A stretch of DNA of 64,000 nt from a candidate division TA06 bacterium (GTDB taxonomy: Bacteria; Hydrothermota; DG-26; E44-bin18). The stretch lies in assembly GCA_004376575.1 (NCBI GenBank), contig SOJN01000070.1, forward strand, positions 1 through 64,000, given 5' to 3'. Positions 41,965-54,670 of this stretch are shown piece by piece (position 1 is the stretch's first letter; the number at the start of each line of letters is the position of its first letter). The notes under the pieces are model-generated. The model saw only the letters and a program-made list of their open reading frames with translations, was not told the DNA's origin and made no database searches. The translations under genes were made by a program, and so were the position numbers.

Positions 41965-43044
41965 CTATGTTTTACTTCGTACTTCGTACTCTGCACCTTG
42001 TACTTCATTTTGAAAGATGAATCTGGTCTTCTTGCACAGCCACACTAAGAAAAGCATGATTGGCACTTCTGTCAGTACCCCAACTACTGTGGCCAGCGCG
42101 GCACCTGAGTTGGCGCCGAACAGAGTTATCGCTACCGCAATTGCCACCTCGAAGTGATTGCTGCCTGCGATAATTGCAGTGGGAGCCGCGTCCTCATATC
42201 TCAGACGGATTATCTTTGCAACGCCGTAAGTGAGAGCAAATACTACAAGTATGTTCACAAAAATTGCCACTGTTATCATGGCAATTATTGCCGGCAGCTT
42301 TACTATGACATAACCCTGAAGGCTGAAGAGCACTACCAAAGTCACAAGAAGTGCTACGATGGCAACTGTCCTCAGAGGTGCCACGAGTCTCCCTTCAAAC
42401 CAGGTTAGGCCTTTTCTCTTTATGGCCAGAGTCCTTGTCACATATCCTGCTGCCAGGGGCAGACAGATGTATATCAACACCGAGAAAGCGATTGTGCCCC
42501 ACGGAATTCTAATGCCGGAAAGTCCAAGCAGAAGACCCGCGAGCGGCGCATACAGGAAGATCATGGTGAGCGAGTTGACGGCGCACATCACCAGAGTGTG
42601 TCCCATATTCCCTTCTGCCAGATAGGACCACATGAGAACCATTGCGGTACATGGTGCCACTCCGAGGAGAATCATGCCCGCCCGGTATTGCAGGGCGTCA
42701 TCATATGGGATAAACCTCTTGAAGACGACGGCCATGAATAACCAGGCAAGGAAGGCCATGGTGAAAGGTTTTATGCCCCAGTTCGAGATCAAAGTGGCAG
42801 CAATCGGTTTGGGTGTTCTTCCTGCCTTCACCACTCTCTTGAAATCTATCTGCACCATTATGGGGTATATCATCCAGAAAAGGCAGAAGGCAACCGGGAT
42901 GGAAACACGGGCAACTTCCATTCTGGACAGGACATCCGAGATCTGAGGCAACAGCCTGCCCATCGCGATGCCCGCGGTGATGCACAACAACACCCATACG
43001 GTCAGAAATCTCTCCCACACACCGAGTTTACGTTTCTTTTCCAT
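41965..43044 (-). CDS. acr3: ACR3 family arsenite efflux permease
   Basis: A 359-residue polytopic membrane protein of the Acr3 (BART superfamily) arsenite exporter family. The signature 'LLGVAPCTAMVLMWSYLAEGN' contains the essential Cys, with 'SIPVAFCLFWMIYPIMVQIDF', 'NWGIKPFTMAFLAW' and 'AGSNHFEVAIAVAITLFGANSGAALATVVGVLTEVPIML'. About ten hydrophobic helices. GAGGAT precedes the ATG. It is preceded by an arsR gene 11 bp upstream and forms the resistance half of a divergent pair. Confidence 0.95.
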   Translation of the reverse strand: MEKKRKLGVWERFLTVWVLLCITAGIAMGRLLPQISDVLSRMEVARVSIPVAFCLFWMIYPIMVQIDFKRVVKAGRTPKPIAATLISNWGIKPFTMAFLAWLFMAVVFKRFIPYDDALQYRAGMILLGVAPCTAMVLMWSYLAEGNMGHTLVMCAVNSLTMIFLYAPLAGLLLGLSGIRIPWGTIAFSVLIYICLPLAAGYVTRTLAIKRKGLTWFEGRLVAPLRTVAIVALLVTLVVLFSLQGYVIVKLPAIIAMITVAIFVNILVVFALTYGVAKIIRLRYEDAAPTAIIAGSNHFEVAIAVAITLFGANSGAALATVVGVLTEVPIMLFLVWLCKKTRFIFQNEVQGAEYEVRSKT

Positions 43045-43055
43045 CGTTTATCCTC

Positions 43056-43391
43056 TCAGCACGCGTGCGTCTTAGAGGCTCTAACGAGTTTCTTGAGATC
43101 AGCTCTAAGTAGACTGTTCTGGTTTCGGGAAAGCCTCACCGCCTTGAGCAATTGCCTGTGGACGGCATTCCTTGGACTCGTGAGGGAGTAGTAGATCCAG
43201 AGCCGCTTACGTTTGTGTTTCACCAGGCCGGCATTCTTAAGATATGTAAGGTGTCTTGAAGACTTTGATTGAGTCGCACCCAGGATCTGCATCACCTCAC
43301 AGACGCATAACTCTCCTTCGAGCAGAAGGTTGACTATCCTCAGCCTTGTCCTGTCTGAGAGGGCCTTGAACATAGAGAGGGTCTGTTCCAA
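43056..43391 (-). CDS. arsR: ArsR family repressor upstream of acr3
   Basis: A 111-residue ArsR/SmtB winged-helix protein: 'FKALSDRTRLRIVNLLLEGELCVCEVMQILGATQSKSSRHLTYLKNAGLVKHKRKRLWIYYSL'. The ELCVCE pair of Cys is the classical As(III)/metal site. The start is set at a TTG (43391) by analogy to the divergent arsR, where 'VEKTLRLFKALS' aligns with 'LEQTLSMFKALS', and because GGGGA precedes it; the longer frames run into the promoter. The C terminus ends in a Cys (THAC). It should repress acr3 through TATATCCG-N6-CGAATATA. Confidence 0.9.
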   Translation of the reverse strand: MEQTLSMFKALSDRTRLRIVNLLLEGELCVCEVMQILGATQSKSSRHLTYLKNAGLVKHKRKRLWIYYSLTSPRNAVHRQLLKAVRLSRNQNSLLRADLKKLVRASKTHAC

Positions 43392-43410
43392 TGACTTTCC
43401 CCTTTTACCG

Positions 43411-43454
43411 TATATCCGCATAAACGAATATAGGCGTTCCTCTCGTTTTGTCAA
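43411..43454 (-). promoter_or_regulatory. Promoter and operator of arsR-acr3
   Basis: Minus strand TTGACA (43454-43449), 16 bp, TATATT (43432-43427). An inverted repeat TATATCCG (43411-43418), N6, CGAATATA (43425-43432) covers the -10 box. Confidence 0.75.
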
Positions 43455-43498
43455 GACCAAAGTACAGCTTCAGTTTCACGGATGGCCTGCTTTCGTCC

Positions 43499-43547
43499 TT
43501 GACAAAAACGTGGGACCCGTGTATGTTACATGCGGATATGCGCATAT
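43499..43547 (+). promoter_or_regulatory. Promoter and operator of the second arsR
   Basis: TTGACA (43499-43504), 17 bp, TATGTT (43522-43527). A perfect 12-bp palindrome ATATGCGCATAT (43536-43547) follows, just upstream of the ribosome binding site AAAGGAGGAGG. Confidence 0.75.
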
Positions 43548-43565
43548 AAGCATAAAGGAGGAGGC

Positions 43566-43925
43566 GTGGAAAAGACTCTGAGACTCTTCAAAGCCCTCTC
43601 GGGCGAGACCCGTTTGAGGGTTGTCAGGCTGCTTCAGCACAGGGACAACCTCTGCGTGTGTGAGATAATGCAGGCGCTCGACATATCCCAGACCAGGGCA
43701 TCCAGGAATTTGGGCATATTGAAGGAGGCAGGCCTGGTGTCGAGCAGGAGAGCGGGTTTGTGGGTTGAGTATTACTTGGACAAAAACGGGATGGGCGCAA
43801 ATGCAAAAGCTCTGCTCAAGGTTCTGTCCGGCTGGGCCGATAAATCAGGCGTGCTCAAGAAAGACCGAAAGAGGTTGGCAACCTCATGTCGAGTCGGTCC
43901 AAAGGCAGTAGGAAGATGCAGGTGA
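43566..43925 (+). CDS. Second ArsR family repressor (of the thiol/permease operon)
   Basis: A 119-residue ArsR protein: 'VEKTLRLFKALSGETRLRVVRLLQHRDNLCVCEIMQALDISQTRASRNLGILKEAGLVSSRRAGLWVEYYL', with the NLCVCE pair. It starts at a GTG with AAAGGAGGAGG; a second conserved Cys is near the C-terminal end 'LATSCRVGPKAVGRC'. It is divergent from the arsR-acr3 pair, and begins a long operon of permease and redox genes to 49069. Confidence 0.9.
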   Translation: MEKTLRLFKALSGETRLRVVRLLQHRDNLCVCEIMQALDISQTRASRNLGILKEAGLVSSRRAGLWVEYYLDKNGMGANAKALLKVLSGWADKSGVLKKDRKRLATSCRVGPKAVGRCR

Positions 43926-43932
43926 CCTGAGG

Positions 43933-45123
43933 ATGCGTGAATACTGGAAATTTATCCTGATCGTTCTTGTATTTCTTGCGGCCTATCTCATGCCGCTGGC
44001 CAGTTCCCGATTCCACAGTGCAATATATGAGGCGTTGGTGATGGTTCAGGAGTATGCTCGGGAGCATGTGCTCTTCTGCCTTGTCCCAGCCTTTTTCATA
44101 GCTGGCGCGATAGCGGTTTTTGTTTCGCAAGCGGCTGTTATCAAGTACTTTGGCGCTAAAGCGAAGAAATGGTTATCCTATAGTGTGGCGTCTGTGTCTG
44201 GAGCGATTCTTGCGGTCTGCTCTTGCACCGTCTTGCCTCTTTTTGCGGGGATATACAAGAGGGGAGCAGGCATCGGACCTGCTACCGCCTTCCTGTATTC
44301 CGGCCCTGCGATAAATGTCCTTGCCATTATCTTGACGGCACGGGTTCTCGGGTGGCAGCTTGGCCTGGCCAGAGCGGTAGGGGCTGTTTTTTTCGCGGTC
44401 GTGATTGGGTTACTTATGGCGCTCATATTCAGAAAGGAAGACCGTGAAAGAAGTGCGACTGGTTTTGACCAGGACGAGGAAACAAGGCAGAGTCCCATTC
44501 AGAGCCTGATCTATTTCCTGACTCTGGTCTTGATACTCATCTTTGCCGCATGGGCCAGGCCGAAGGAGCCTGCCGGGCTCTGGTGGGGGGTCTACCGTAT
44601 CCACTGGTATCTCGTGGCGGCCCTGCTTGTGGCTCTTGGTTTTGAACTTGTGAGGTGGTTTAGGAAAGCTGAACTCCGGCAGTGGGTGGATTCCACATGG
44701 GGTTTCTCTAAACAGATACTCCCTCTTCTTTTTGCTGGCGTGCTTGTAGCAGGTTTCCTGATGGGAATGCCAGGTTCTGACAGAGGTATTATCCCTTCAC
44801 GCTACATCACAACCCTAGTTGGTGGAAACTCGTTGTTGTCGAATTTCACAGCCTCAGTGATCGGGGCCCTTATGTACTTCGCTACTCTCACTGAGGTGCC
44901 GATCCTTCAGGGACTGCTGGGCAGCGGGATGGGTTATGGGCCGGCACTGGCTCTTCTCCTCGCGGGACCGGCACTGAGCCTTCCCAACATGTTTGTCATA
45001 CGTAGTGTTCTTGGGTCGAAAAAGACGCTTGTATACATACTACTGGTGGTAATTATGGCCACAATCACGGGTCTTATCTTTGGGTCCATGATGGAAGGGG
45101 GGGCAAAAATATGGCCTGGTTAG
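43933..45123 (+). CDS. ArsP-like permease (DUF318)
   Basis: A 396-residue membrane protein of the DUF318 permease family, which includes ArsP organoarsenical exporters. The hallmark 'VCSCTVLPLFAGIYKRGAGIGPATAFLYSGPAINVLAI' has the C-x-C pair expected to handle soft metals; a later 'GPALALLLAGPALSLPNMFVIR' matches the second half. About ten helices, with a central polar loop near residue 170. It is 7 bp after arsR and overlaps the ferredoxin gene by 13 bp. Substrate could be an organoarsenical, arsenite-thiol complex or another thiophilic species. Confidence 0.9.
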   Translation: MREYWKFILIVLVFLAAYLMPLASSRFHSAIYEALVMVQEYAREHVLFCLVPAFFIAGAIAVFVSQAAVIKYFGAKAKKWLSYSVASVSGAILAVCSCTVLPLFAGIYKRGAGIGPATAFLYSGPAINVLAIILTARVLGWQLGLARAVGAVFFAVVIGLLMALIFRKEDRERSATGFDQDEETRQSPIQSLIYFLTLVLILIFAAWARPKEPAGLWWGVYRIHWYLVAALLVALGFELVRWFRKAELRQWVDSTWGFSKQILPLLFAGVLVAGFLMGMPGSDRGIIPSRYITTLVGGNSLLSNFTASVIGALMYFATLTEVPILQGLLGSGMGYGPALALLLAGPALSLPNMFVIRSVLGSKKTLVYILLVVIMATITGLIFGSMMEGGAKIWPG

Positions 45124-45443
45124 TGGGTTATCCCAGGGACAAGATAGATTGGTATCCCGCAATTGATTCAGAAAAGTGTGTTCAATGTGGGGTGTGTATG
45201 AATTGCGGCAAGAAAGTATACGACTGGACCGATAAGGGGGCTGTTGTCGCGCGACCATACCAATGCGTGGTAGGATGCTCGACCTGCGCAAATCTATGCC
45301 AGGGAGAGGCCATTTCTTTTCCGAACATAGAAGGGATACGGGAGATCTATAGAAGAGAGCGCATCTGGAAAAAGATCAAGAAGCATTTAACTGCACAGGG
45401 CAAACTGGAAGTCAAAGAAAGACAGCAGAATAACGGGGAATAA
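45111..45443 (+). CDS. 4Fe-4S ferredoxin-type protein
   Basis: A 110-residue ferredoxin. First cluster ligands are 'CVQCGVCMNC' (C23, C26, C29, C32); second 'CVVGCSTCANLC' (C52, C56, C59, C63), a spacing somewhat unlike standard CxxCxxCxxxCP. It is short for a two-cluster ferredoxin with extra C-terminal basic residues. The start overlaps the permease by 13 bp with GGAAGGGGGG upstream. It is a likely electron source for reduction of the metalloid or the CxxC proteins. Confidence 0.87.
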   Translation: MAWLVGYPRDKIDWYPAIDSEKCVQCGVCMNCGKKVYDWTDKGAVVARPYQCVVGCSTCANLCQGEAISFPNIEGIREIYRRERIWKKIKKHLTAQGKLEVKERQQNNGE

Positions 45444-45470
45444 GGTGCAAGTCACCCGGGCGAATGTGTA

Positions 45471-45950
45471 ATGAGAAAATCTCTTCTATTCAAAGAACGT
45501 ACCCTGGCTAATGGGGGACGCTCCAGACTGGCAACAATAGTCTTGTGTCTTGTGGGGCTGGCTCTCGTGCTTTTCTGTGTTTTGAGTTGTGATAGAGTGG
45601 GTGAACAGGGTAGTAATCCAGAAGGAACCGAAACAGAGCCAGTACAAACGGGAGCCAAGAGTGAAAAAGCAAAGGTGACTTTTATTGAGCTCGGTTCGGT
45701 CAGATGTATCCCCTGCAAGCGAATGCAGCCTATCATGAAGGAAATCGAGGAAGAATATAGAGGTCAGGTGAGGGTTATCTTTTGTGATGTGTGGACAAAT
45801 GAGGGACGGCCTTACGCCAGCAAATATCGGATAAGAGTGATTCCGACGCAGGTCTTTCTTGACAAGGATGGGAAGGAATACTTCAGGCACGAAGGGTTCT
45901 TTCCTAAGGGGGACCTTGTGGAAGTGTTGAAGCGACAGGGGGTGAAGTAG
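45471..45950 (+). CDS. Periplasmic thioredoxin-like lipoprotein 1
   Basis: A 159-residue lipoprotein (lipobox VLSC40) with a thioredoxin fold. The redox motif is CIPC (C79, C82) in 'GSVRCIPCKRMQPIMKEIEEEY', and the cis-Pro is in 'RIRVIPTQVFLDKDG'. Acts outside the cytoplasm, probably reduced by the CcdA encoded downstream. Confidence 0.9.
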   Translation: MRKSLLFKERTLANGGRSRLATIVLCLVGLALVLFCVLSCDRVGEQGSNPEGTETEPVQTGAKSEKAKVTFIELGSVRCIPCKRMQPIMKEIEEEYRGQVRVIFCDVWTNEGRPYASKYRIRVIPTQVFLDKDGKEYFRHEGFFPKGDLVEVLKRQGVK

Positions 45951-45999
45951 CAATGAATGCATCTTTGTGTACGACCTGGGACTGCAGGGGGTAGCTGTT

Positions 46000-46491
46000 G
46001 TGTCCAGCAAAGTGAAGATGCTGTGGGTTGGAAATGGCCAGGTGGGACTCGTCGGTCTGGACGAGGTCCTTGAACAAACCAAGGCAAAAGCTCTGACGGG
46101 AGAGGCTATCAAACAATTTCTTCTCAACGAGACAAGAAAAAGAAACTATGTGCCGGAATCCGCCGAAGACGAATACGCCGAGGCCCTCATGCGAGAATAC
46201 CGGCGATATTGCGGCGAAAGTGTGGATGAAGTGCCTCCTGGCGTCCTTTTTGTAGAAGTGTTGGGCCCAGGCTGTCCGGAATGTGACCATATGGAGCTAG
46301 AGGTCAAAAATGTCCTTTCAGACCTGGGCATAGGCGGACACGTTGAACATGTGAGAGATAGGGAGAAGATGAAGAAGTACAAGGTTTTTGGCGGGCCAGG
46401 ATTGGTGATAAACGGCAAATTGAAGGCCGCGGGCAGGGTTCCGAGCCGTAAGGAACTCGAGAAATGGTTGAAAGAAGCGGAAGTCAAGTAG
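46000..46491 (+). CDS. CxxC thioredoxin-like protein with shared N-terminal domain
   Basis: A protein of about 163 residues. The N-terminal about 70 residues ('NGQVGLVGLDEVLEQTKAKALTGEAIKQFLLNETRKRNYVPESAEDEYAEALMREYRRYCG') have no family that I recognise. A CxxC thioredoxin-like half follows with 'VLGPGCPECDHMELEVKNVL' (C92, C95). The 'VPES.EDEYAEAL..EYRR' pattern recurs in the C terminus of the second DGC protein (47380-47580). The GTG start at 46000 with GGGGGTAG before it is preferred over 45967. It is cytoplasmic. Confidence 0.75.
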   Translation: MSSKVKMLWVGNGQVGLVGLDEVLEQTKAKALTGEAIKQFLLNETRKRNYVPESAEDEYAEALMREYRRYCGESVDEVPPGVLFVEVLGPGCPECDHMELEVKNVLSDLGIGGHVEHVRDREKMKKYKVFGGPGLVINGKLKAAGRVPSRKELEKWLKEAEVK

Positions 46492-46904
46492 GCCAGAAGA
46501 GAGGGGAAGCGGAGAGACCCACAGTTGTCGTGGGATGTGCTGGTATTGGAAAAATCATGGGCACCATAGCTGCTGAATCGGTTCGAAGTCTTGTGAATAC
46601 CAAGGGTCTTCAGACTGTGTGCTTGCCCCTCGTGATCATGGATGATGAAGAAACGTTGGAAAGACTGCGCAGAAGTGACTGTGTAGTCGTTGAGGGCTGC
46701 CAGGAGTCCTGTGTGTCAGAGACCCTGGCCAGTAAGGGGATAGCAGCTATGGCCCGCATGGAGGTACTTCAGCTCTGGTCAAAGAATGTCGAACTGAGAC
46801 CGAAGTCTATTCTGGAGCTGGGTGAAGACGGCATCAAGCTCAGAGACATTCTAGTCGAACGCATCATGACTGAGATCGGGAAAATCAGGGGAGAAGCAGG
46901 GTGA
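46464..46904 (+). CDS. Putative zinc-binding DGC-domain protein 1
   Basis: A 146-residue member of the DGC family (Pfam 'putative zinc-binding protein'). Four Cys (C25, C53, C79, C83) in 'VVVGCAGIGKIMG', 'TVCLPLVIMDDEE' and 'VVVEGCQESCVSETL'. The family motif has an Asp-Gly-Cys; here the middle reads E-G-C. The substrate is unknown. It overlaps both neighbours by a few bases. Confidence 0.8.
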   Translation: MVERSGSQVGQKRGEAERPTVVVGCAGIGKIMGTIAAESVRSLVNTKGLQTVCLPLVIMDDEETLERLRRSDCVVVEGCQESCVSETLASKGIAAMARMEVLQLWSKNVELRPKSILELGEDGIKLRDILVERIMTEIGKIRGEAG

Positions 46905-47596
46905 CCTACCTGGGGAAGAAAGTGGGAATTGTGTGTTGCGGCGGGGATGAAAGCCCCCTTGGGATAATCTCACGTAAGGCGACACTGATGGTGCTCAGGC
47001 GCCTGAGGCGGGGGACCACAACAACCGTGTGTTTGCCCCTTTTTTCTACTGGGGATGAAGACTACAGATTGTTTGCCCGTTTTTATCCTACGATTGCCGT
47101 GGACGGTTGTGGCAAGTTGTGTGCGAAAAATGTGACGTCCGCCATGAGTGCAAAGGTGGTTACCAGCATATCTATCGAAGACTTTGTCGAAAGACTGGGC
47201 CTTGATCCCTCATCCGCGGCTTCTGACACTCTTGTGCAGAAGGTCGCGGAGGAGATTTCGTCGGCTGTTGACAGCATACTGGCAGAACGTGGCGAAATAG
47301 AGCCAGAGCCTGAGGCTGAGGATGAAGAGGGAGTCTCCTACGAGAAATGTGCTTGCGGGATAGATCTTCCCGTACAGACTCTTGTAGTCGGGGGCAAACC
47401 AATGAAGGTTCGCGCTCTTCCGCTCATATTTGAGGAGTCGTACAAGGAAAATGAAGGCCTTGGGCAGATTATGAGTCTAGTGGCTGCATACAATCCAATT
47501 CCCGAGGGGATGGAGCGGGATGTGGAAGAGTCAGTCAGCGAGGCCTACAAGAGGTTCTTGAAGAAGATGATCAAGAAGAATCGAACGACTAAATAG
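46901..47596 (+). CDS. Putative zinc-binding DGC-domain protein 2 with C-terminal extension
   Basis: A 231-residue protein. The N-terminal half is the DGC domain with Cys C12, C13, C44, C70 and C74 and the diagnostic 'IAVDGCGKLCAKNVT'. An acidic linker precedes a C-terminal domain, 'KCACGIDLPVQTLVVGGKPMKVRALPLIFEESYKENEGLGQIMSLVAAYNPIPEGMERDVEESVSEAYKRFL', resembling the N-terminal part of the CxxC protein at 46000-46491. The start is GTG overlapping the upstream stop (GTGA). Confidence 0.8.
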   Translation: MTYLGKKVGIVCCGGDESPLGIISRKATLMVLRRLRRGTTTTVCLPLFSTGDEDYRLFARFYPTIAVDGCGKLCAKNVTSAMSAKVVTSISIEDFVERLGLDPSSAASDTLVQKVAEEISSAVDSILAERGEIEPEPEAEDEEGVSYEKCACGIDLPVQTLVVGGKPMKVRALPLIFEESYKENEGLGQIMSLVAAYNPIPEGMERDVEESVSEAYKRFLKKMIKKNRTTK

Positions 47597-47605
47597 GAGG
47601 GAAGC

Positions 47606-47842
47606 GTGAAGGTCGAAGTTTTTGGGCCAGGATGTCCGCGGTGCAAGAAAACCGAGGAGAACGTTCGTGAGGTTCTTAGGTCCCTCGAGATTGATGCCGA
47701 GGTTGTTCTTGTAAAGGATATAGAGGAGATGACATCGCGAGGAGTCTTGAGAACGCCCGCGGTGTTTGTGGATGGGAAGAAAGCGTCGGAAGGAAAGGTA
47801 CCTGGACCGGAAGAGATAAAGGAGTGGCTGACCGGCAAGTAG
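47606..47842 (+). CDS. Small redox-active disulfide protein
   Basis: A 78-residue minimal thioredoxin-like protein: 'VFGPGCPRCKKTEENVREVL' with C10 and C13 and the cis-Pro in 'VLRTPAVFVDGKKASEGKVP'. It begins at a GTG with AGGAGGGAAG upstream. It resembles the CxxC half of the gene at 46000. Cytoplasmic; a likely partner of the DGC proteins or the permease. Confidence 0.87.
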   Translation: MKVEVFGPGCPRCKKTEENVREVLRSLEIDAEVVLVKDIEEMTSRGVLRTPAVFVDGKKASEGKVPGPEEIKEWLTGK

Positions 47843-47885
47843 ACAGCAGTCACAGATTGATTCGAACTGGTAGAGGTTGATTCCC

Positions 47886-48377
47886 ATGGAAAAGACACGC
47901 ACTATTGTGTCAGTCGTGATGGCAGTCGTTCTCGCCATATGGGTGCTGTGTGGGTGTTCGCGTGATAGCGAACACGCGCATTCAAACGCGCTTGAATCGA
48001 GTGACCGTTCCGCTAGTAACGGGCAGCACAAAGATGCTGCAGCAGAAGTCGCGTCAACGGCAGTTAGTGTTGACAATGTTCGCTTTGTGCTGATTGTATC
48101 TAGTGAGACTTGCCAGTGTGCTCTCGAGAAGTGCCGTGAGAACGAGAAATATCTGGCGGAGACACTTCGCAGGCTTGGCCTTGGCTCCAATCTGGACATT
48201 GTTGATCATGCCAAAGAAGAAGACAAGGCTGTTCAGCTCTTCAAGGAATACCGAGTTCACTTCATCCCTTCTTTTCTTGTGCTTGACGGAGACGGAAAAG
48301 TCCTCTTCAAGAATGAGTGGGACATCGACCACATTGCGTTTGAGGAGTTACTGACCAGCTTAGGGAATACACAATGA
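47886..48377 (+). CDS. Thioredoxin-like lipoprotein 2 with CxC...C
   Basis: A 163-residue lipoprotein (Cys24 in LCGC). The thioredoxin-like region 'VLIVSSETCQCALEKCRENEKYL' has a C-x-C-x4-C arrangement instead of CxxC. The cis-Pro equivalent is in 'YRVHFIPSFLVLDGDGKVLFKNEW'. An Asn/Ser-rich linker follows the lipobox. ATG at 47886 is preferred to a TTG nine bases earlier. It overlaps ccdA by 4 bp. Confidence 0.8.
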   Translation: MEKTRTIVSVVMAVVLAIWVLCGCSRDSEHAHSNALESSDRSASNGQHKDAAAEVASTAVSVDNVRFVLIVSSETCQCALEKCRENEKYLAETLRRLGLGSNLDIVDHAKEEDKAVQLFKEYRVHFIPSFLVLDGDGKVLFKNEWDIDHIAFEELLTSLGNTQ

Positions 48378-49069
48378 TTCAGTCTCTAATATCAGGCGCT
48401 GAGCAGGCCATAAGAAGCTCCCCGTGGCTTGCTCCCTTGCTTGTCTTCCTCGGAGGACTGCTGACAGCTTCAAATCCGTGCGTCTTGGCCATGATACCTC
48501 TGGCTATCGCTTTTGTCAGTGGGAATGAGTCAGTCAAGTCATGGCGAAGCGGTGCGCTGTTTTCACTCTTTTTTGTTTTGGGGCTTTCGTTCACATTTGC
48601 TATTTTGGGCGTGATTGCTGCGCTGGCCGGGAGGTTGCTGGGTGATGTCGGACCATTCTGGAAATACATAATCCTCATTGTATGCCTTGCCATGGGTGGC
48701 CACCTACTTGGGTTCCTCAAGTTCAGATCTTCCTTCTCGAGCCGAATCGAGGTCAGAAAAGGGGGGTTTCTCGGAGCTTTCATCTTGGGTCTCCTTTTTG
48801 GTACAGTCTCGACCCCGTGTGCAGCTCCCATTCTTGTAGTACTTCTAACGTATCTGGCAGCGAGCAAGAGCAGCGTACCTTTCGGGGTCTTGCTTCTCTT
48901 CTGCTACGCTCTGGGACACTCCGTTCTTGTCCTGGCCTCTGGAGTTTCCTTCGGGTTTGTGAAACAGGTGGTAAGTTCTGAAAGATTTGCTAGAACGAAT
49001 ATGTGGCTGCAAAAGGGCGCAGGGATCCTTATTATTGGGGTCGGCGTCTTTTTGTTCCTCTCCAGGTAG
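48374..49069 (+). CDS. ccdA: CcdA/DsbD-type thiol-disulfide transporter
   Basis: A 231-residue membrane protein with six helices. The redox-active Cys pair C36 ('TASNPCVLAMIPLA') and C149 ('STPCAAPILVVLL') carries electrons from cytoplasmic thioredoxin to periplasmic proteins. In this operon it would reduce the two thioredoxin-like lipoproteins. It is the last gene of the arsenic/thiol operon. Confidence 0.92.
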   Translation: MIQSLISGAEQAIRSSPWLAPLLVFLGGLLTASNPCVLAMIPLAIAFVSGNESVKSWRSGALFSLFFVLGLSFTFAILGVIAALAGRLLGDVGPFWKYIILIVCLAMGGHLLGFLKFRSSFSSRIEVRKGGFLGAFILGLLFGTVSTPCAAPILVVLLTYLAASKSSVPFGVLLLFCYALGHSVLVLASGVSFGFVKQVVSSERFARTNMWLQKGAGILIIGVGVFLFLSR

Positions 49070-49128: not shown

Positions 49129-49157
49129 TTGACAAGACTTGATAGTCGGCGTATATT
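49129..49157 (+). promoter_or_regulatory. Promoter of the fur-feo operon
   Basis: TTGACA (49129-49134), 17 bp, TATATT (49152-49157). The ATG at 49167 would lie within a few bases of the transcription start, so the message would be leaderless. Confidence 0.75.
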
Positions 49158-52739: not shown

Positions 52740-54383
52740 CTAGTCGTTGGCCTTCCGCGTCCAGTAGGGGCTGGAGATACCCTCAAATGCTGACATAGCT
52801 GCCGCTGCGCCTTCGCCCACAGCAGTGACGATTTGCCTTACTGCTCCAGTCACATCTCCTGCGGCATATATCCGAGGGATGTTGGTCTTGCCTTTTCGGT
52901 CCACTTTTATGAAGCCCGAATCCGACAACTCTATGCCCACTTCCGTAGCCAATTGTATGTTGGGGACCTCACCGATTGACACGAAGAGACCGTCAGTCTT
53001 TGCCTCCTGTGTAGTGTTGTCTTTCGTGTTTTTCAGTTTCACGCCATCGAGTTTGTCTTTGCCAAGGATCTCCTCGACGGCGGAGTCCCAGATAACCGGG
53101 ATGTTCTCTTTCTTCACAGATTCCTGAAGGTATTTCTCCGCCCTGAACTGGTCTCTTCTGTGGACTATCCTGACGTTTGCACGGAGGCTCTTGAGATAGA
53201 GTGCGTCGGTCAGCGCGGTATTGCCGCCACCGACCACAATCACGTCCCTTCCTTTGTAGAGGTTGCCGTCGCACATGGCGCAGTAACTGACGCCATGTCC
53301 AAAAAACCTATCCTCGCCGCGTGCCTTCAGTTTTCTATATCGGGCCCCGGTCGCCAGAATGAGCGCTTTTGCCACATAGCGGGCCCGGTTAGTGATCGCC
53401 TCTATGTTCTTTCCGATTTTGATCTCCCTCACCTCTTCACCCTCTCGAACATTCACATAGTTCTGGGCATGGGCGCTGATCATCTCCATCAGCTTCTTTC
53501 CCGCGATATTATCAAAACCAGGATAGTTCTCCACTGATGGCGTTACCAGGACCTGTCCGCCGATGGTTTCCTTCTCCAGGACAACTGCATTAAGCCCGCT
53601 TCTCTCTGCGTAGATGCCGGCTGTCAATCCTGCTGGTCCGGCACCGACTATCACCACATCTGCTTCAACCATTTCTTCGTCAACAGAAGGTGCCCACTCT
53701 TCTACTGGTTCCAGTGTGACCAGCTCAGAAATGAATCTTTCTTCAGGCTCAAATCCAAGGCCCATAGTCTTACCATTTATTACTGTATGTGGAACCGACC
53801 CCACATTGTACTTCTTGGCGAGGTCAACATTTTCGTTCGAATCAACACACTCACCAGATACAAGGTCCGGTTTTTCAATGGCGGCCCTGAAGGCGTTCAA
53901 AACCTGGCCTGGGCAGTACGGGCATGCCAGGGTTACAAAAACCTGCACATTCCTTTTCTCACTTAGCTTGGATAGAATTTCCTTTGAGGCTTTCGAAAGA
54001 CCGCTCTGTCTACGGGACACCAGCATAATTGTCTCGATAAATGACCTTCCCTCTTCACCTGCCGGCGCGCCCGTATATCGAATCCGGTATTGTTCGGGGT
54101 TGATGAGCACAGTGGGCGAGCTTGCAACGTCGTACTTCTTTGATTTTGCGTCGGCTACTGAATTCAAATTTACCTGTATCTTGCTGCTCAGTTTTGCCAG
54201 ATCCCTGGTAAACTTCACTGTCACATCATTGTACGGATCGTTCTCCCCCTTCTTGGTGAAAACCTCGAGTACCACTTTTTCCTTCATTTCCTTGAACATC
54301 TCAAACAACGTCTGCCTGGCATCTCTTTCGATAAACCAGTCTTCTTCTTTTTCTTCAGTCTTCTTCCTCCCGGTTTTGGCCAT
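52740..54383 (-). CDS. Thioredoxin reductase with N-terminal PDO-like domains (AhpF-like)
   Basis: A 547-residue flavoprotein. Residues about 20-225 hold two thioredoxin-like folds; the first lacks a CxxC, the second has CPYC (154-157) and a cis-Pro 'GSVPHTVING'. The C-terminal domain is a thioredoxin reductase: FAD 'GAGPAGLTAG' (247-256), redox 'CAMCDG' (368-373), NADPH-type 'VVGGGNTALTDALYL', and end 'AGDVTGAVRQIVTAVGEGAAAAMSA'. Similar to AhpF. Start at 54383 with AGGAG upstream, preferred over 54401. It could reduce CxxC proteins of the thiol island. Confidence 0.92.
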   Translation of the reverse strand: MAKTGRKKTEEKEEDWFIERDARQTLFEMFKEMKEKVVLEVFTKKGENDPYNDVTVKFTRDLAKLSSKIQVNLNSVADAKSKKYDVASSPTVLINPEQYRIRYTGAPAGEEGRSFIETIMLVSRRQSGLSKASKEILSKLSEKRNVQVFVTLACPYCPGQVLNAFRAAIEKPDLVSGECVDSNENVDLAKKYNVGSVPHTVINGKTMGLGFEPEERFISELVTLEPVEEWAPSVDEEMVEADVVIVGAGPAGLTAGIYAERSGLNAVVLEKETIGGQVLVTPSVENYPGFDNIAGKKLMEMISAHAQNYVNVREGEEVREIKIGKNIEAITNRARYVAKALILATGARYRKLKARGEDRFFGHGVSYCAMCDGNLYKGRDVIVVGGGNTALTDALYLKSLRANVRIVHRRDQFRAEKYLQESVKKENIPVIWDSAVEEILGKDKLDGVKLKNTKDNTTQEAKTDGLFVSIGEVPNIQLATEVGIELSDSGFIKVDRKGKTNIPRIYAAGDVTGAVRQIVTAVGEGAAAAMSAFEGISSPYWTRKAND

Positions 54384-54670
54384 GGTTTTTCTCCTTAGCA
54401 AGACTTTTCTTGCCCATATTACTCCAACACAGAGCAGTGTGCAATTAGATTGTTTCCAAGCATGGTAATCCCGCGAAGCGGGGAAGACACCTACAGACTT
54501 ATGGCAGTTGCCGCACTGCCCAAGATGTCAAATGTCAAGTCAAAGATCCTGCCTGTCGCACGCAAAGCGCCCACTTTGCCCATCCGGGAGAGCAATCTGT
54601 TTGCGCTCCAGACCTTATACTCAATCCCTATTCCGGCAATCTTCAATCTTAAATCAGCAATCTTAAATGT
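54384..54670. other. Intergenic flank of the insertion sequence
   Basis: A modest AT-rich flank without a supported gene. Immediately before 54671 lies AAATGT, repeated after the right end of the element. Confidence 0.45.

Follow-up and report, generated by a model that had tools for sequence, protein, structure and literature searches.

Closest described systems

Redox genes have been reported beside arsenic pumps before. The ArsEFG system is attributed to Chen, Zhang and Rosen (2019) in PMC9144182; in NCBIfam, ArsF carries the name of a nitrophenyl-compound nitroreductase subunit and ArsG that of an aromatic aminobenzylarsenical efflux permease. Castillo and Saier (2010; PMC2963123) described arsenic resistance (ars) operons in which CcdA, a thioredoxin and RADP2 (ArsE) occur together, with a proposed role in ArsC reduction. 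The ArsP permeases of cluster 1 were defined by Yang et al. (2015; PMC4435449), in a survey whose excerpt used here describes no redox neighbours and mentions neither thioredoxin nor CcdA, and export of methylarsenite and trivalent organoarsenicals has been shown for Campylobacter jejuni ArsP (PMC6205960). The operon described here lies in a 64,000-nucleotide stretch of DNA (the window, part of contig C70) from a candidate division TA06 bacterium, whose phylum is now named Caldifarciminota by NCBI and whose genome comprises 3.0 Mb in 150 contigs at 97% completeness. It parallels both ArsEFG and the 2010 CcdA/thioredoxin operons, a parallel missed by the first-pass annotation of this DNA, and with a probability of about 0.6 it is an ars operon directed at trivalent arsenicals (organoarsenicals most likely) that couples their export to a cytoplasm-to-periplasm dithiol relay. 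The term relay is used here for the components CcdA/ArsG and thioredoxin lipoprotein (TrxLP)/ArsF. New in this analysis are the scale of the pattern, the interchange with ArsF/ArsG, the dependence on envelope type, and the DGC and CxCxxxxC parts.

Gene content and control region

The plus-strand operon (43566-49069) encodes ArsR2, ArsP, a ferredoxin, a CIPC lipoprotein, a long ArsE, two DGC proteins, a short ArsE, a CxCxxxxC lipoprotein and CcdA, in that order and with gaps of -28 to +40 nt between genes. An ArsR1-Acr3 unit is divergent from it. Bit scores below are given against curated cut-offs.

41965..43044, minus strand: Acr3 arsenite efflux transporter of the divergent unit (TIGR00832, 359.9 bits against 282.8)
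43056..43391, minus strand: ArsR1 repressor with CVC motif (NF033788, 88.9 bits against 55); TTG start behind promoter and operator
43409..43422, minus strand: putative operator copy 1, TATGCGGATATACG, mirroring copy 2 (12 of 13 identical)
43427..43454, minus strand: sigma-70-like promoter of arsR1-acr3, TTGACA-16-TATATT (11 of 12 consensus positions)
43499..43527, plus strand: sigma-70-like promoter of the plus-strand operon, TTGACA-17-TATGTT (10 of 12 consensus positions)
43529..43554, plus strand: putative operator copy 2, beginning CATGCGGATATGCG, internally palindromic and mirroring copy 1
43566..43925, plus strand: ArsR2 repressor with CVC motif (NF033788, 81.4 bits against 55); ribosome-binding site GGAGGAGG, GTG start at 43566
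43933..45123, plus strand: ArsP permease of cluster 1 (PF03773, 270 bits against 32); motifs HVxxCLVPAFFIAG and LAVCSC
45111..45443, plus strand: ferredoxin-like protein (Fer4); 13-nt overlap with arsP
45471..45950, plus strand: thioredoxin-fold lipoprotein 1 (PF00085, 39.7 bits); active site CIPC, lipobox VLSC
45967..46491, plus strand: long ArsE, an extra N-terminal domain of about 90 residues and a CPEC thioredoxin (TIGR00412, 73.9 bits against 62)
46464..46904, plus strand: DGC protein 1 (PF08859, 45.6 bits against 27); four invariant cysteines
46901..47596, plus strand: DGC protein 2, with an extra C-terminal part (PF08859, 49.1 bits against 27); four invariant cysteines
47606..47842, plus strand: short ArsE, CPRC (TIGR00412, 90.1 bits against 62)
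47886..48377, plus strand: CxCxxxxC lipoprotein (lipoprotein 2), ATG start at 47886; C77, C79 and C84 invariant
48374..49069, plus strand: CcdA-type transmembrane thiol electron carrier (PF02683, 75 bits against 27.1); C36 and C149 invariant

Every gene listed for this operon by the first-pass annotation is present, and most families score above their curated cut-offs; Acr3, which it had placed within 43411-49069, lies outside that span. It had also called both lipoproteins thioredoxin-like, which fits lipoprotein 1, while the resemblance of lipoprotein 2 is weak (E = 0.008). The most likely start of ArsR1 is 43391, corrected from 43460, because the -10 box of the promoter (43427-43432) falls inside the longest open reading frame. 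A 13-nt element lies directly behind each -10 box, the two copies being mirrored with a 12/13 match that was equalled in 3 of 2000 shuffles, and at zero to one mismatch the 3.0-Mb genome contains only these two sites. Given mirrored operator copies that are otherwise absent from the genome, a single ArsR-type control probably governs the two units.

Relative to ArsEFG, the operon contains the ArsE family twice and occupies the same slot beside ArsR, ArsP and Acr3; however, none of its proteins matches ArsF (NF040494), its CcdA reaches 48.8 bits against an ArsG (NF040495) cut-off of 200 and is therefore not ArsG, and two thioredoxin-fold lipoproteins, two DGC proteins and a ferredoxin are found instead. 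The combination of CcdA, thioredoxin and RADP2/ArsE in one ars operon is shared with the 2010 operons, although the window operon lacks ArsC, which is not strictly required there, and adds a cluster 1 ArsP, the DGC pair, the ferredoxin, the long ArsE and the CxCxxxxC lipoprotein. The CcdA has the fold family and both membrane cysteines of the CcdA/DsbD carriers, with a profile matching the solved CcdA 5vkv (E = 1.5e-18), but, unlike them, it belongs to an ars operon under ArsR control and is accompanied by a dedicated CxCxxxxC lipoprotein. By analogy with these carriers, it would transfer electrons across the membrane.

Conserved linkage and interchange with ArsF/ArsG

A search of 84,980 genomes with the permease as query returned at least 572 relatives, of which the best 80, from more than 20 phyla and nearest to this one query, were used for neighbourhood counts. 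Within 4.5 kb of these 80 permeases, ArsE was found at 64 loci, ArsR at 61, a CcdA-like protein at 39, Acr3 at 34, TrxLP at 24, ArsF and ArsM at 17 each, DGC at 14 and ArsC at 12. ArsE, CcdA/ArsG and TrxLP/ArsF occurred together at 34 of the 80 loci, and no TrxLP, ArsF or DGC gene was seen more than 6 kb from ArsP in this set. Gene order and content recur across phyla, that is, beyond chance; the families that the first-pass annotation expected to find linked in relatives are linked there, and its proposal survived this check. A tblastn search of plasmids with the permease gave distant homologues only, among them one Chloroflexota match (37%) in the order ArsR-RADP2-permease.

Proteins above the ArsF (NF040494) and ArsG (NF040495) cut-offs take up the position after ArsE in Omnitrophota and other groups, and a Prevotella nigrescens plasmid, as annotated by the Prokaryotic Genome Annotation Pipeline (PGAP), has the order ArsR-ArsF-ArsG-ArsE-permease-ArsC-Acr3. 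TrxLP and ArsF co-occur at only one of the best 80 loci. ArsG and CcdA are homologous (hhalign E = 1e-39), and each matches 5vkv. The first cysteine of the CcdA pair is kept in all 42 sequences compared (26 CcdA and 16 ArsG), and the second in 26/26 CcdA and 15/16 ArsG with an offset of one to two alignment columns (PC vs FCP), while ArsF carries a CxxC behind a hydrophobic N-terminus in 17 of 17 cases. In sequence terms, ArsF/ArsG have the anatomy of a transmembrane dithiol relay, whichever other functions ArsG may have. A broader proposal is offered tentatively, at somewhat less than even odds: ArsF/ArsG and CcdA/TrxLP might be one interchangeable, envelope-specific dithiol relay for periplasmic trivalent arsenicals exported by ArsP, with DGC and the CxCxxxxC lipoprotein as new arsenical-binding or relay components.

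Dependence on envelope type and origin of the operon

When a relay gene was counted if it lay within 5 kb of ArsP, it was present at 2 of 19 Bacillota loci and 42 of 60 other loci (Fisher p = 7e-6). Among loci with at least 4 kb on both flanks, the corresponding counts were 1/11 and 16/19 (p = 9e-5). ArsE, taken as a control, showed no such bias (16/19 Bacillota, 47/60 others), and a permissive search near ArsP in the Bacillota loci found no overlooked relay genes. The relay most likely works mainly where a periplasm exists.

The window ArsP groups with ArsPs of Bacillota, mostly from relay-free operons (quick tree, SH-like approximate likelihood ratio test 95), and is 68-71% identical to these against 62% to those of its own phylum. 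In contrast, the window CcdA is nearest to CcdA of its own phylum (56%), and the CxC lipoprotein is likewise nearest to same-phylum proteins. These differing affinities suggest a mosaic operon in which the relay tracks the host and not the permease.

Several observations weigh against a relay tied to the periplasm and to organoarsenicals. The ArsP tree yields only three to five independent pairs, among which the Bacillota pattern is not significant. Two Bacillota loci (L053, L085) carry a relay, and a locus without one (L035) belongs to the Halanaerobiales, an order generally described as diderm. Nor is a relay found nearby at about 30% of the non-Bacillota loci, many of which lie on short contigs. 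Sampling was not random, as the 80 loci are those that best match a single query, and the p-values for ArsM and ArsC given below are uncorrected.

Probable arsenical substrate

The window permease has the PF03773 domain and both cluster 1 motifs, HVxxCLVPAFFIAG and LAVC(S/T)C, and by analogy with characterized ArsP it most likely exports trivalent organoarsenicals. The host genome encodes ArsM on contig C78 (365 bits against 263), and methylarsenite can therefore arise internally. ArsM was found at 12 of 36 loci with a relay and 5 of 43 without (p = 0.03, uncorrected). The first-pass annotation had also suggested that thiolated arsenic might be made or handled, but neither a gene nor an association in support of this was found; synthesis of thioarsenic was rejected, as no gene or neighbour points there. 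HgcB-like mercury methylation by way of the ferredoxin was rejected too (NF040864, 30.5 bits against 99).

Proposed mechanism

From gene content and linkage we infer the direction of electron flow, the partners, the substrate and the periplasmic task as follows. ArsR would derepress both mirrored promoters, Acr3 would export As(III), and ArsP would export trivalent methyl- or other organoarsenicals. In the cytosol, reducing power may be stored by CxxC and cysteine-rich proteins (the two ArsE, the two DGC proteins and possibly the ferredoxin), which may also bind the arsenical or reduce it. CcdA would then be reduced by ArsE or a different cytosolic dithiol, and its cysteine pair would pass reducing power across the inner membrane to the two lipoproteins (CIPC and CxCxxxxC). 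Kept reduced in the periplasm, these lipoproteins might accept, buffer or re-reduce the thiophilic arsenical after its export, and may also protect or repair periplasmic thiols. The system would function in the manner of ArsE-ArsF-ArsG, thioredoxin lipoproteins and a true CcdA standing in for ArsF and ArsG. The arsenic-dedicated thiol path from cytoplasm to periplasm proposed at first pass is, apart from its thiolated-arsenic part, still the best reading, given the CcdA cysteines, the two lipoproteins, the recurrent linkage with ArsR, ArsP, ArsE, Acr3 and ArsM, and the envelope dependence.

Alternative explanations

The NCBIfam names suggest a system in which ArsE and a partner reduce aromatic arsenicals and the CcdA-like protein is an efflux permease, with no electron relay; the window CcdA does score weakly with the ArsG model. 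This appears unlikely, since that score is far below the ArsG cut-off in an operon without ArsF, both CcdA cysteines are retained in ArsG, and the CxxC of ArsF follows a signal-like N-terminus. Monoderms would also profit equally from an additional pump in the inner membrane, yet the relay is rare among them. Improbable to a greater degree is the 2010 proposal that the redox genes feed electrons to ArsC for arsenate reduction, although seven of the eight ars operons with CcdA, thioredoxin and RADP2 in PMC2963123 also had ArsC. The window operon has no arsC (41965-49069), the genome's best ArsC-like protein is on another contig and below cut-off, and ArsC is cytoplasmic, so that a transmembrane carrier would be needless, a point made in PMC2963123 as well. 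Nor is relay presence raised with ArsC (4/36 loci with a relay, 9/43 without; uncorrected), and because the relay rises with ArsM and not with ArsC, organoarsenicals are favoured over ArsC.

Export of another thiophilic metal (Cu, Zn or Hg) by an SO_0444- or SaoE-like permease, with arsenic genes as chance neighbours, is less probable again: the permease matches the SO_0444 Cu/Zn and SaoE models weakly, but at 118.7 against 300 and 117 against 325 bits it stays under both NCBIfam cut-offs, and it carries the cluster 1 motifs, with Acr3, ArsM and ArsR recurring beside its relatives. A second ArsP_1 protein in the genome, on contig C24, does have an SO_0444-like look and lies near DsbD and TlpA. 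The least probable reading is general maintenance of periplasmic thiols, for cytochrome c or sulfur metabolism, that is merely located in an ars operon. CcdA and thioredoxin lipoproteins have such roles elsewhere, and locus L027 has DGC, SUF, TrxLP and CcdA without ArsP; however, the mirrored, otherwise absent operator ties the operon to arsR1-acr3, the genome has two other DsbD/CcdA-type genes, and the ArsP linkage recurs across phyla.

Accessory components and neighbouring genes

Among 147 genomes of the host phylum, DGC was found in 15. Nine DGC genes outside the window sit in ArsP clusters, in the order ArsR-CcdA-TrxLP-ArsP-ArsE-DGC, often with Acr3, or ArsR-ferredoxin-DGC-ArsP-ArsE, and others adjoin minimal SUF genes or Acr3-like transporters. 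DGC is among the commonest genes directly after ArsE at ArsP loci, and close relatives of the window ferredoxin occur in other DGC/ArsP loci. DGC is an accessory (14 of the 80 loci) and, as it also occurs beside minimal SUF genes in the host phylum, is not arsenic-specific; it may serve Fe-S or thiol handling generally. Such clusters with a minimal SUF (ATPase and SufB/D-like) lie at L027 7941-12723, L028 481-4087 and L030 663-2758, that of L028 additionally holding ferredoxin, OsmC-like and ArsR genes. The AlphaFold model of DGC protein 2 (predicted local distance difference test, pLDDT, 76.9) gives the DGC domain an alpha/beta Rossmann-like fold; compared with the PDB it had no match at E < 0.001, only general alpha/beta folds, and no solved structure related to DGC by sequence was found.

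The N-terminal domain of the long ArsE, modelled as a hairpin and three helices (pLDDT of the long ArsE model, 84.5), belongs to no Pfam family and has five homologues, at L094, L065, L069, L053 and L108; it recurs fused to thioredoxin among these, and in L108 it is a separate 87-aa gene. For the CxCxxxxC lipoprotein, C77, C79 and C84 are invariant in four homologues, and in three same-phylum genomes the homologue is flanked by TrxLP and CcdA within clusters of the ArsR-ArsP-ArsE type; in two of these clusters Acr3 lies downstream. Judged by this slot and by the invariant cysteines, it is a real, recurrent part of the relay and not a stray open reading frame.

In other same-phylum ars clusters, a 480-residue protein is encoded between ArsE and TrxLP (L127 5539-6993; L128 5596-7041); it has a signal-peptide-like start, a barrel-like look and no Pfam match, and is possibly a dedicated outer-membrane protein. 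By eye, some partner thioredoxins are fused behind a SurA-like domain of the peptidyl-prolyl isomerase type (L044, L080, L029, L027). Elsewhere in the host genome, the second ArsP_1-family permease follows a full DsbD, a TlpA-like lipoprotein and DUF1573 proteins at a distance of about 2 kb (contig C24, L125 1406-6439), another linkage of thiol carrier and permease. A third CcdA-type cluster (contig C145, L126 2069-5516) encodes a 380-aa CcdA-like protein and a small ArsE-like thioredoxin, with a MerR-family regulator and a further ArsE-like protein nearby. Downstream of CcdA in the window, Fur-FeoAB was rejected as part of the operon, having its own strong, separate promoter (TTGACA-17-TATATT, 49129-49157) and not occurring near ArsP relatives. 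At 52740-54401 on the minus strand, 1.2 kb beyond FeoB, lies a fusion of thioredoxin reductase and protein disulfide oxidoreductase in an AhpF-like layout, which, speculatively, could feed the relay chain.

Implications

Arsenic detoxification is usually drawn as a sensor, an enzyme and a pump, with the inner membrane as its end point. That a relay is found mainly where a periplasm exists implies a further, periplasmic step, and offers a testable reason for the recurrence of CcdA-like proteins in ars operons. The pattern spans anaerobes where methylation of arsenite is common and air does not oxidise methylarsenite away. It also suggests that the little-understood ArsEFG system may be a redox relay, and makes it directly testable whether ArsG acts as a pump or as an electron carrier.

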